Source: Erysipelotrichaceae bacterium
GTDB lineage: Bacteria; Bacillota_I; Bacilli_A; Erysipelotrichales; Erysipelotrichaceae
Assembly: GCA_017539105.1 (NCBI GenBank)
Contig: JAFYHQ010000014.1
Coordinates: forward strand, 62,001 to 126,000
Direction: 5' to 3'
Length of the DNA: 64,000 nucleotides
The translations under genes were made by a program, and so were the position numbers. The notes beneath the pieces are model-generated. The model saw only the letters and a program-made list of their open reading frames with translations, was not told the origin of the DNA and did not search any database. Each line of letters opens with the position of its first letter. Position 1 is the stretch's first letter. Shown here in pieces: positions 202 through 4,440 of this stretch.

Positions 202-678
202 TTATCTTTTCTTGTTGGAAAACATATCATCAATTATCTTGCCGATAGATTGCCCTAATGCTTTGCCAAAGCGTTCGCCAAGTTTGGTGGCTCAATGTTT
301 CTTATGACTTGCTCTCTTGTGATTTACATTGTAAGAGCCAATTTCGTTGATGCTGTTAAAGATATCATAAGCGCTTTCTTCTATCATTTCGCTAACATCT
401 TCTTCTACTCAACGCACGATATCTGTTTGTATCTCGTTGAGTGCTTGCGTTGATGCTTCAATCAGTGTCTTTTCTAACGCTTGCTTGTTAAATATATAAC
501 GGTCTCGCTTCGGTTCTATTCTCAATGGGTAGCCGAGGTCATCCAATCGGTGAATATAACTGTCTATCAGTTCTTCGCGTGAAGTTATGTATTCGTATTT
601 GATTGTTCCGTTGCCTGATTGCCCCAATTGCTTTTTGAGGTTGTGTTGATGATGTGCCATTTTATCGCTGACGTTCAT
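202..678 (-). CDS. Element protein of unknown function, TGA read as Trp (158 aa)
   Basis: Under the standard code this frame stops at a TGA at 409-411, leaving a short protein. Reading that TGA and a second one (292-294) as Trp extends it to a TAA at 202-204, giving 158 residues followed at once by a strong terminator. The start at 676-678 is chosen because AAGGAG precedes it by nine bases; it overlaps the previous gene by 17 bases. The middle is acidic and helical (WVEEDVSEMIEESAYD). The tail is an amphipathic glycine-rich helix (GERFGKALGQSIGKIIDDMF). I do not recognise the family. Confidence 0.7.
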
Positions 679-886
679 TTCTGTAAAACTCCTTGATATA
701 TACATCTAATTTGTATCGGCTCTCATAGCCAAGTTTTGTGACTCCTGATAGTCAATTATAAAAAGACGTTTCCTTGATGCCGATTGCGGATGCGATATCT
801 TTGTATCTTACATCGCTGCCTCATTTAAGAAACCGGCATTCTCCTCTTAATCTTTCTTGTTCTTCTTTAATAGGTGGTAAGCACAT
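662..886 (-). CDS. Small helix-turn-helix protein, TGA read as Trp (74 aa)
   Basis: This gene is invisible under the standard code because TGA occurs at codons 22 and 45. Read as Trp it gives 74 residues containing YKDIASAIGIKETSFYNWL, a classic helix-turn-helix of phage and plasmid regulators, in which a tryptophan at the Y-N-W-L position is typical. GGAG stands 7 bases before the ATG at 884-886, and it ends in TAA at 662-664. Probably a DNA-binding regulator of the element. The 117 bases upstream hold no start codon and are probably a leader. Confidence 0.75.
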
Positions 887-1003
887 AATTATTTCTCCTT
901 TCTGTGCGGGGGTGAGTTTCAGGACAACACAACAAAGTCGTTGATAATTGCTCGTTGGTGCTCCAAACTGCTTCCCAAAGTATTTTTTATTGATTATGAA
1001 GTA

Positions 1004-1495
1004 TTAGAAGACAAACTCTTCTGCTGGATGAAAAGAGAGGGGCTCAACGTTGTCGTTGAGGCACTCTCCTTTATTTATCTTTGTATTGTTCGTTATATTG
1101 TTTCTATGCTGATTTTCGCACGTCTCTTGTTCGGTTTCCGTATAAGAAGGTGTGCGAATATCGTATAGTTCTTTGGCTGATGGTGTGCGGTTTTCGCACC
1201 CCTGATATATGCTCTTCTGGTGGATGACGTTTTCATCAAAATCTATGAAACCTTTTTCTTTGAGCTCTCGTAGCCCATCGTGAAAGGTTGTTCTTTTGAT
1301 GCCCCATTTGTGTTTGGCATCAGCAGGTGATATGTCCCACAAGATGCCGTCTTTATTCTTCAAAAGATAGCATCACACTTTGAAACCCGAGCCGTTTAAT
1401 ACCGAGCAGGCATAAGCCATTTCTTCTTCGCCATAAATAAGATAGATGCCTGATATCTTCTTATCTATTCTTACTGTTCTTTGATTTTGATACAT
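1004..1495 (-). CDS. Helix-turn-helix protein, replication-initiator-like, TGA read as Trp (163 aa)
   Basis: Starts at ATG 1493-1495 inside the end of the DUF5659 gene and ends at TAA 1004-1006. Codon 41 is TGA (1373-1375). As Trp it gives SGFKVWCYLLKNKDGILWDI, the conserved segment found before a winged helix (AKHKWGIKRTTFHDGLREL, about residues 59-77) in small plasmid and phage initiator or regulator proteins. Two other tryptophans use TGG. The C-terminal third is polar, Asn- and Glu-rich and probably unstructured. Standard-code reading would begin only after the TGA and lose the first helix. Likely a DNA-binding initiator or regulator. Confidence 0.72.
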
Positions 1496-1682
1496 AGCCA
1501 TTGCGTTCAAACCTCACTATCTTATTAACTTCTCTTCTTAATTCTTCACTGTCTTCAAAATAGAAGACGTGAAACTCTGGCTTATTTTTGTTTCTGCCTG
1601 TGCCGATACATTTATAACCTCGGCTTTCAAGTTCTTTCGCCAATCACAAGGCGCATATTGTGTAGTTTGTATTTTGATACAT
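1461..1682 (-). CDS. DUF5659-like protein, TGA read as Trp (73 aa)
   Basis: ATG at 1680-1682 follows AAAGGAG with good spacing. Codon 13 is TGA (1644-1646); as Trp it gives TICALWLAKELESRGYKCIG, matching the DUF5659 pattern of a helix, then Gly-Tyr/Phe, a strand and F-x-F-x-D-S-E-E-L (seen as VFYFEDSEELRREV, about residues 44-57). Family members are small proteins of phages and conjugative elements with no assigned function. It overlaps the next gene by 35 bases, and both begin with the same residues, MYQN. The stop is TAA. Confidence 0.72.
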
Positions 1683-1744
1683 TTTTCTTACTCCTTTCAA
1701 ATTATCTACATAATAATTTTCCTCATATTTTTTATGAAACACAA

Positions 1745-1772
1745 ATTATACGCATTAAAGAAAAAAGCCCAA
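1745..1772 (-). promoter_or_regulatory. Probable promoter for the DUF5659/HTH operon
   Basis: On the minus strand TATAAT (1745-1750) lies 16 bases after TTGGGC (1767-1772). The -35 overlaps the terminator of the upstream gene. The leader to the ATG at 1682 is about 55 bases and carries AAAGGAG. Confidence 0.5.
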
Positions 1773-1801
1773 TCAGTATTTCTTTTTTCTACTGGTCGGG
1801 C
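1759..1801 (-). terminator. Rho-independent terminator after the 63-aa gene
   Basis: A 12-bp stem with one mismatch (1767-1778 with 1790-1801, including one G-T pair) is followed on the minus strand by TTTTTT. It separates the 1831-2940 genes from the recoded DUF5659 operon. Confidence 0.75.
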
Positions 1802-1830
1802 GTTATGTAAAGAGAAGTATTGTCATTATT

Positions 1831-2022
1831 CTATGCCGTGTATATTGGCTCCTGATGAGGCGCAATCCACATTTGAAAGAGTTTGCCATTAGATAGTTCA
1901 ACGGTGATTGTGTGCTTACAGAACGGTTGCTTGCGTGCTGTTTCCATCAGCAGTTCTTGTGCTTTGAAGATTGCTTCAATATCATTTGATGCTTTTGTTT
2001 TGATAATTGTTCTTGTTTTCAT
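1831..2022 (-). CDS. Small element protein of unknown function (63 aa)
   Basis: A short beta-alpha-beta-like protein with TIIKTKASNDIEAIFKAQEL and a C-terminal VELSNGKLFQMWIAP. It has one TGG tryptophan and ends in TAG. AAAGGA precedes the ATG, and the gap to the upstream gene is 16 bases, so it is probably co-transcribed with the two genes before it and then terminated at 1759-1801. Not recognised. Confidence 0.7.
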   Translation of the reverse strand: MKTRTIIKTKASNDIEAIFKAQELLMETARKQPFCKHTITVELSNGKLFQMWIAPHQEPIYTA

Positions 2023-2038: not shown

Positions 2039-2509
2039 TTAACTTAATTTAGTGGGAAACTTGCCGGCTGATTTCTTGGCTTCAAATACAGGGGCGTTGT
2101 TTGCCAAATCAGCAGTGCGGATGCGTTCAAGAGTATCAAATGGTGATTTGTAATCTGGAACCTCCGAGATGAACCACTCTTTCGCAAACTGATAGCGGTG
2201 TCTGCTGTCAGGAACAACGAGAACCTTGTTATTGAACTCATCAAGTAATTCTTTGCCATTTGGAAGCATTGATAATACGTGTCTCATATAATCGTAAGTC
2301 AAACCTTTTGAACGTCTGGAAGAGGTGATTTTTCTACCGCTTTCTTCACAAATCTCAATCTGTGGGAAATCGTTCTGAACCTGTAAAATCAGTTTGTATT
2401 CTTGTGAGCCGATTGCTTCTGCTCTCTGAGCGAACTTGTGATTTACAATCATCCGATTGTTAGCCCAATCAAGCCGATAACCGAGCCTTACGTTTTCTCT
2501 TACTGCCAT
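2039..2509 (-). CDS. Element protein, paralogue of the upstream gene (156 aa)
   Basis: Unrecognised family. It shares with the 2509-2940 product the pattern L-T-Y-x3-M-x2-x-L-S-M/L-L-P-N, then an acidic or polar segment, then Y-Q-x2-K-x-W-F-I (residues about 70-115). The two genes are probably an old tandem duplication. Its ATG overlaps the upstream TAA by one base (TAATG), which suggests translational coupling. Only TGG tryptophans are used; the stop is TAA. Confidence 0.75.
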   Translation of the reverse strand: MAVRENVRLGYRLDWANNRMIVNHKFAQRAEAIGSQEYKLILQVQNDFPQIEICEESGRKITSSRRSKGLTYDYMRHVLSMLPNGKELLDEFNNKVLVVPDSRHRYQFAKEWFISEVPDYKSPFDTLERIRTADLANNAPVFEAKKSAGKFPTKLS

Positions 2510-2940
2510 TATGCGATAGCCTCACTTTCAACTACTTCATTGCTGTCATATAATCCAGCATCAATATCTTTCTGTAATAAGTTCATATCGTTATCATAAG
2601 CGTTTTCAATGAACCATTTCTTTACGTACTGATAAGGGCTTGAAGTAATTAAGGATAACTTCCTCTGATATTCAAACTGTCCTAATAATACTTCGGCATT
2701 TGGGAGCAGGGAGAGATGATTTTCCATCTTCTTGTAAGTCAGGTGTCTGTTATTGACTTTTCTGTTAGCGTTTTTCTTATTTGTTCTTGAAACCAATCTT
2801 ACGACTTCTGGATTTTCAGCTTTGAACTTTTTCCAGAGATGATACTCGGTTGTGCCGTAAGTTAATGCTTTGTTTAAGAATGCTCTTGAAACGATAGCTT
2901 CTTCCTGATTTAATGCGTTGATTTTGATTGTGTTTGTCAT
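2509..2940 (-). CDS. First gene of the element operon, paralogue of the next gene (143 aa)
   Basis: A basic protein with many Asn and Lys residues in the centre (SRTNKKNANRKVNNRHLTYK), followed by the motif shared with its neighbour (LLPNAEVLL and YQYVKKWFI). GTAGAGG precedes the ATG. It starts the minus-strand operon from the intergenic region it shares with the divergent integrase. Function unknown; the basic centre could bind nucleic acid. Confidence 0.75.
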   Translation of the reverse strand: MTNTIKINALNQEEAIVSRAFLNKALTYGTTEYHLWKKFKAENPEVVRLVSRTNKKNANRKVNNRHLTYKKMENHLSLLPNAEVLLGQFEYQRKLSLITSSPYQYVKKWFIENAYDNDMNLLQKDIDAGLYDSNEVVESEAIA

Positions 2941-3133: not shown

Positions 3134-4231
3134 GTGTCAATTCATAAAGACAAAAAAAGAAATACTTGGTATGTAAAATACAACAACAAAACCAAGAGGG
3201 GCTTTACTTCAAAGAAGGAAGCGCAGAACTATGAAATGTTATTAAAATCAGGAAAAGGGCAACCGCAAACAAAGATACAAGAATACGAGTTCTCATTTAT
3301 TGCTGATGACTTCTTAAAATACAAGAAAAATGATATTGAGTATTCCTCATATTCTCTTTACGAGGGAATTGTGAATAATACCATCAAGCCTTATTTTGAA
3401 AACAAGATAATCAACAGCATCAAAGAACTTGACTGTAAAGGATTTAGGGATGCTGTTTCACTACTGGATTGTTCGGCAAGAAGGAAAAATAAGATACTTC
3501 AACTTTGTAAAAATATCTTTCAGTATGCTACGGATTATTATGAGTTATCTTCTAATCCCTCATTAGTGATGAAACCATTTAATTACAAAATGGAAGAAAA
3601 GATAAGCAGTAAAAAGAAAGAATTGTGCATTTGGAATAACGATGATTTCAACAAGTTTATTAATTGCGTTCTTGATGAAGATTACAAAGCACTGTTTCTT
3701 GTTTTATATCTAACAGGTTTAAGGTTGGGTGAAGCATTGGCGCTGACATACAATGATATTGATGAATACAGTTTATCAATCACCAAATCCCAAACAAAGA
3801 TAACTGAAAATGGTACTTACGAAATTAAAGCACCGAAAAACGTTTCAAGTATCAGGGATGTATCAATCAACAAATCTTTATATTTCTACCTTCTGGCAAG
3901 AAAAAAGGAGGAGATGAATAAACCTGATTTTATGTCCTCTTGGTTTGTATTCGGCGGAAAAGACCCACTACCTCGCACCAGCATTGAACGCGTCAAAAAC
4001 AAAGCAGTCAAAGAAGCCGGTGTGAAGAAGATACGGCTTCACGATTTCAGGCATTCGCACGCTTCAAATCTTATTGGTGAAGGAATGGATATTGTGGCAG
4101 TATCAAAACGATTAGGCCATAGCAATATTGAAATGACATTGAACTGTTATACGCATTTGTTGAAGAAAAACGATGATGATTTGACGGAGTATTTAGAAAA
4201 ATCTTCTCACAACCTTCTCACAAAAAGTTGA
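3134..4231 (+). CDS. int: Tyrosine recombinase / integrase (365 aa)
   Basis: Phage-type site-specific integrase. An N-terminal Arm DNA-binding segment (SIHKDKKRNTWYVKYNNKTK), a SAM-like core-binding domain (about 60-160), then the catalytic domain with the first Arg in TGLRLGEALAL, H-x-x-R in RLHDFRHSHASNLI, a later Gly-His (KRLGHSNIEMT) and Tyr in LNCYTHLLKK. The start is GTG; a four-codon ORF (3118-3132) ends just before it. All three tryptophans are TGG and the frame stops at TGA (4229-4231), unlike the rest of the element. If TGA were Trp it would gain seven residues and end at TAA 4250-4252. It faces the tRNA-Thr 3' end, the likely target. Confidence 0.93.
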   Translation: MSIHKDKKRNTWYVKYNNKTKRGFTSKKEAQNYEMLLKSGKGQPQTKIQEYEFSFIADDFLKYKKNDIEYSSYSLYEGIVNNTIKPYFENKIINSIKELDCKGFRDAVSLLDCSARRKNKILQLCKNIFQYATDYYELSSNPSLVMKPFNYKMEEKISSKKKELCIWNNDDFNKFINCVLDEDYKALFLVLYLTGLRLGEALALTYNDIDEYSLSITKSQTKITENGTYEIKAPKNVSSIRDVSINKSLYFYLLARKKEEMNKPDFMSSWFVFGGKDPLPRTSIERVKNKAVKEAGVKKIRLHDFRHSHASNLIGEGMDIVAVSKRLGHSNIEMTLNCYTHLLKKNDDDLTEYLEKSSHNLLTKS

Positions 4232-4364: not shown

Positions 4365-4400
4365 TGGTGCCAACTACAGGAATCGAACCCGTAACCTACT
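4365..4400. other. Candidate attachment site (tRNA-Thr 3' half)
   Basis: The integrase gene points at the 3' end of this tRNA, the classic target of tyrosine integrases. The matching direct repeat should lie left of base 1. This is a prediction from layout; the exact crossover is unknown. Confidence 0.4.
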
Positions 4401-4440
4401 GATTACAAATCAGTTGCTCTACCTATTGCGCTAAGTTGGC
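4365..4440 (-). tRNA. tRNA-Thr (anticodon TGT)
   Basis: A 76-base cloverleaf on the minus strand. Acceptor GCCAACT pairs with AGTTGGC, with A73 and an encoded CCA. The anticodon arm is ACTGA-TTTGTAA-TCAGT (anticodon TGT) and the T loop is GGTTCGATTCC. It reads ACA threonine codons and is co-transcribed with tRNA-Val. Confidence 0.97.

Follow-up and report, generated by a model that had tools for sequence, protein, structure and literature searches.

Stop-codon recoding in prokaryotes is known either genome-wide or in phages, and it usually comes with a suppressor tRNA. Four kinds of described systems come close to the locus reported here, which resembles each of them only in part. First, in gut phages it is the late genes that are stop-codon recoded, with codes 4 and 15 (Borges 2022, as summarised in PMC10136315), and only 35% of TGA-recoded genomes have a suppressor tRNA (PMC10136315). 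The present locus is similar in that TGA means Trp in one gene set while the rest of the mobile DNA and the host are standard, and in the missing cognate tRNA; however, it is not a phage, and what is recoded in it are genes for replication and regulation. Second, standard-code bacteria that keep RF2 show natural readthrough by near-cognate tRNA-Trp(CCA): UGA was read through more often in E. coli with a 4-bp anticodon stem, A24 is a Hirsh-type change (PMC13092985), and in B. subtilis Trp is inserted at UGA with a frequency of about 6% (Lovett 1991, as cited in PMC6316719). The same tRNA features, standard code and RF2 are present here, but those reports concern tRNAs, reporters and a low-level leak, whereas in our case UGA seems to serve a mobile operon as an ordinary codon for Trp. 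Third, the related Mycoplasmatales use code 4 genome-wide (PMC8629427), with UGA read as Trp at an AT-biased frequency as in our operon, although here this is true of a single operon in a cell that has RF2 and stops at UGA elsewhere. Fourth, PICI-like satellites and small integrative elements of Firmicutes share with our element the tyrosine integrase at a tRNA gene, Xre-type regulators, a Rep-like protein and a size of about 8.6 kb, but no packaging genes were recognised in our element. No report of an element with operon-restricted UGA = Trp was found in the literature searched, which excluded most subscription papers.

The window, by which we mean the whole stretch of 64,000 nucleotides that was analysed, lies at G000:C6:62001-126000; G000 is a draft assembly of 2.09 Mb, split into 48 contigs, from an Erysipelotrichaceae host whose closest named relative is Solobacterium sp. 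UBA3303 (G104). The element is integrated in a tRNA-Thr gene and runs leftwards from it; since a second copy of the tRNA end lies left of the window (Table 1), its length is about 8.6 kb. A hairpin insert of 27 bp interrupts this attL copy and may make precise excision difficult. Besides the tyrosine integrase, the element contains two paralogous proteins of unknown family, a 63-aa protein, the four-gene operon with in-frame TGAs (the TGA block), HTH regulators, a serine resolvase, a WYL/WCX regulator and a few small genes; apart from those of the integrase, the resolvase and the regulators, gene functions rest on weak matches. Structure models of two proteins, P0001 and P0002, are of low confidence, and P0001 has no confident fold match. 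An integrase together with an attachment site in a tRNA gene is what PICI-like elements have, and neither packaging interference nor small terminase genes, traits of such elements, were recognised among the element genes (Pfam, PHROGs). In the related element of Erysipelotrichaceae RGIG4604 (G206), a second integrase gene sits at another tRNA-Thr directly left of the element (L015, G206:C9, 11-1294), which suggests tandem integration.

Table 1. Coordinates of the element's features in the window
Feature	Position	Strand	Remarks
Helical protein of unknown function (P0002)	202..705	-	In-frame TGA 409-411 (W99), 292-294 (W138)
Small HTH protein	662..886	-	In-frame TGA 821-823 (W22), 752-754 (W45)
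DnaD/O-like replication protein (Rep)	1004..1495	-	PHROG 186, E 8e-8; in-frame TGA 1373-1375 (W41)
DUF5659-like protein	1461..1682	-	In-frame TGA 1644-1646 (W13)
Leader: ribosome site and upstream box (CATAAAAAAT...AAAATTA)	1683..1745	-	Common to window, G104, G206
Intrinsic terminator between TGA-free genes and TGA block	1758..1806	-	-15.2 kcal/mol, z -4.8; same hairpin and T tract in G104
63-aa protein	1831..2022	-	Without TGA
Element protein of unknown family	2039..2509	-	TGG only
Paralogue of the 2039..2509 gene	2509..2940	-	TGG only
Tyrosine integrase	3134..4231	+	Stop is TGA, likewise in the G104 element
tRNA-Thr(TGT), attachment site (attR side)	4365..4440	-	Second copy of tRNA end at G000:C6:57753-57820, left of window

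The first important finding is that UGA is close to certain to mean Trp in the TGA block, as judged from codon and alignment comparisons. A reading of this DNA from its sequence alone (the sequence-only reading) had claimed six in-frame TGAs in four adjacent genes, free of in-frame TAA or TAG, on an element whose seven minus-strand genes in the window all end in TAA or TAG, and translation of the sequence confirmed each of these points: P0002 and the HTH gene have two TGAs apiece, Rep and the DUF5659 gene a single one, and there is no in-frame TAA or TAG in any of the four. The +4 base after these TGAs varies, with no context common to them. Searches that read through stops found in-frame TGA in block genes of five related elements from three genera: in P0002 of G104, G206 and G113, and in related Rep and HTH genes of G071 and G081, whose C-terminal TGAs in two genes were left out of the counts as possibly true stops. 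G120 holds a remnant, and the elements of G112 and G166 have the TGA-free genes in common with ours, with no TGA-coded block seen. All carriers identified in a limited sample of genomes are Erysipelotrichaceae; they are few, and are draft or metagenome assemblies as judged by names or contig counts.

The aligned columns in these elements carry most of the argument. HTH W22 is invariant and TGA-coded in all four elements with the HTH gene, and DUF5659 W13 is TGA in three (window, G104, G206). At other columns TGA and TGG replace one another: P0002 W138 is TGA in the window, G104 and G206 and TGG in G113, P0002 W99 is TGA in the window and TGG in G104, and Rep W64 is TGA in two elements and TGG in three, including the window, where W53 is TGG as well. 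Rep W41 is TGA in two elements, TGG in two and Tyr in one. All four strong matches to the HTH protein contain TGA, whereas most weak matches, which are other HTH proteins, do not. In-frame TGA and TGA/TGG exchange also mark a fifth family of small genes, present in G113 (L039, G113:C70, 8268-8576) and G120 (L263, G120:C39, 1553-1738), where it adjoins the P0002 or HTH gene.

Selection acts on the block beyond its TGAs. Between the window and G104, dN/dS is about 0.1-0.25 across the four genes, with dS of 0.5-1.3, and it is low both before and after the TGAs (dN and dS after the first TGA run from 0.042 and 0.373 to 0.275 and 1.177), so evolution in the block acts on full-length proteins, with TGA read through. 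This bears directly on a reading of the genes as pseudogenes, assembly errors or separate short ORFs, which might be prompted by the fact that the named carriers were assembled from metagenomes and the rest have the look of drafts. That reading, to which we give very little credence, is refuted by the recurrence of the TGA columns in independent assemblies, by in-frame stops that are TGA and never TAA or TAG, by constraint that continues downstream, and by TGA/TGG exchange; sequence decay is ruled out by comparison, since relatives retain the same pattern. UGA is also the selenocysteine codon in bacteria. That it encodes selenocysteine or some residue other than Trp in the block is less credible still: the residues in the aligned columns are aromatic or are Trp encoded by TGG, with no cysteine at conserved columns, and there are several UGAs per gene.

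The second finding is that UGA = Trp is confined to the block operon, which the comparison with the other element genes and the host firmly indicates. TGA makes up 6/8 of the Trp codons in the block of the window (0.75) and 7/10 in that of G104 (0.70), matching the share of A-ending codons for Lys, Glu and Gln (0.70 and 0.68, respectively). Outside the block it accounts for none of the Trp codons (0/20 and 0/9), while A-ending codons stand at 0.73 and 0.70. Pooled, TGA:TGG is 13:5 in the block vs 0:29 in the other element genes (Fisher p = 6e-8, a value that is indicative only because codons shared by descent are not independent), and with TGA or TGG held at the same columns in relatives this bears out the claim that TGA falls at Trp sites in a non-random manner. 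When the count of stops was extended leftwards, as the sequence-only reading had proposed, the HTH_26 and WYL genes were found to end in TGA (TGATAA in the latter), like the integrase; the HTH_26 gene of G104 likewise reaches TGA at its end. Therefore, the element is not recoded as a whole, and of the earlier idea of a recoded integrated element in a standard-code chromosome, the part that stands is TGA = Trp in the block. The chromosome does use TGA as a stop, as had been said: over about 500 kb of the genome, it closes 150 of the 452 ORFs that reach 120 aa or more. The RF2 gene is present, and the host thus shows neither disuse of UGA as a stop nor loss of RF2, the marks of genome-wide code 4. 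Among other host genes with in-frame TGA in about 500 kb, the best candidates outside the element either lacked support or were neighbouring genes whose Pfam domains differed between the two sides; weaker candidates were not all checked.

Could the element come from a code-4 host of the Mollicutes type, with the block as silent cargo in standard-code hosts? The code of the Mycoplasmatales would fit the block, but we regard this as improbable: it is largely refuted by the TGA stops of the integrase, HTH_26 and WYL genes, and all Trp codons outside the block are TGG, all carriers found are Erysipelotrichaceae, and purifying selection is seen between elements at dS of about 1. The sequence-only reading had pointed instead to code-4 phages. 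In-frame TGA at Trp positions is indeed present, but a code-4 phage is not supported, as no phage structural, packaging or lysis genes were recognised in the element (Pfam; PHROGs for the eight genes scanned) and no tRNA-Trp(UCA) was found in it or in two carrier genomes. Moreover, the two proteins scanned against viral contigs, P0001 and P0002, have no relatives there, and the block proteins tried against phage and plasmid records (P0001 in the phage records) have none either.

The boundary between the two meanings of UGA seems to coincide with a transcriptional one. The TGA block is probably a transcription unit of its own, because it is preceded by a conserved terminator and, in three elements, by a conserved box and ribosome site. 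The leader, by consensus match and conservation, is the probable promoter of the block.

How UGA is decoded is the next question. There is no tRNA inside the element (ARAGORN, Rfam), and a tRNA-Trp with a UCA anticodon, for which the sequence-only reading had suggested searching element and genome, was not found: no UCA anticodon was seen among the 61 tRNAs of G000 (two judged by eye) or the 40 of G104 (ARAGORN), both assemblies being less than 90% complete and one G104 tRNA match being truncated at a contig end. A UCA-anticodon pattern run over 273 family genomes gave mostly chance matches, and the eight places chosen from them held no tRNA. In contrast to a cognate tRNA, near-cognate decoding by a tRNA-Trp(CCA) with an unpinned 27-43 pair and/or A24 finds its tRNA in the host, whose tRNA-Trp(CCA) combines A24 with a mismatched uppermost pair of the anticodon stem (U27-C43); because of this, the host can in principle read some UGA as Trp. 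The same combination is found in G104, G113, G071 and G081 (with C9 too in the last two), whereas G206 has a G-U pair at 27-43 with A24, and tRNA-Trp of this kind also occurs in many relatives in which the element was not found. Three features that have each been connected with UGA readthrough, namely C9, A24 and the unpinned 27-43 pair, come together in the tRNA-Trp(CCA) of G071, G081, G101 and G111 (loci L154, L153, L134 and L147, respectively). The host also has a tRNA array of about 13 tRNAs among chromosomal genes (G000:C17:7553-8651, L006) and another of about seven (G000:C6:13679-14222, L002), one of whose members is a further tRNA-Trp(CCA), divergent and with 5 bp in its anticodon stem. 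Everyday UGA readthrough in the host is probably modest, because TGA is a common stop and there is no excess of backup stops after it.

Taken together, we think it rather probable that this is a genetic-code-gated element, whose replication module is translated only when UGA decoding rises, via host tRNA-Trp or a helper tRNA. For the narrower proposal that the host's near-cognate tRNA-Trp(CCA) decodes the block UGAs, and that these act as the gate, we see an even chance. The tRNA-Trp(CCA), with A24 and the unpinned 27-43 pair, would compete with RF2 at the block UGAs, which would form a translational gate on the replication module; output would be low in the quiet integrated state and would increase once UGA-decoding capacity went up, through less RF2 or an invading phage with a tRNA for UGA. 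Against a gate that depends on the host tRNA, several genes have two UGAs and the Rep of G104 has three, and at the B. subtilis readthrough of about 6% their output would be tiny; the relatives with such a tRNA-Trp but no element found, the G-U pair of G206 and the lack of extra backup stops in the host also tell against it. Two or three UGAs per gene therefore favour a condition with strong UGA decoding, which both decoder models can supply.

The other decoder model makes the element a satellite of a UGA-recoded helper phage; the element's induced genes would follow the helper's code and would need tRNA-Trp(UCA) from the phage to be translated. We hold this as a tentative alternative and favour the host-tRNA decoder with the gate. 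The division between standard integration and regulatory genes and recoded induced-type genes resembles phage recoding (Borges 2022, via PMC10136315), the TGA share of Trp codons in the block has reached mutational equilibrium, which is what efficient UGA decoding at every time of need for these genes would predict, and the element is small, with an integrase and a Rep-like gene. However, six TGA-flagged phrog_2 (terminase) places in the 273 family genomes all read as standard code, and no recoded prophage was found in that search. The lack of a UCA tRNA in two carrier metagenome assemblies, of relatives of P0001 and P0002 in viral contigs (and of P0001 in phage records) and of a recognised packaging gene also speaks against a helper, although a lytic helper would be invisible in such data and its absence therefore weighs little.

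Two meanings of UGA, apparently split by transcription unit, occur within a single bacterial element of about 8.6 kb, and this dual meaning has been retained over long divergence with no cognate tRNA found. Since standard gene callers truncate the block proteins, more elements of this type have probably been overlooked. The locus offers a testable case of how standard-code bacteria read UGA as sense, with a bearing on the physiological role of tRNA-Trp with a 4-bp stem and A24 and on genetic-code gating as a layer of control. If the gate proposed here is true, the meaning of UGA would differ between operons of one 8.6-kb element.
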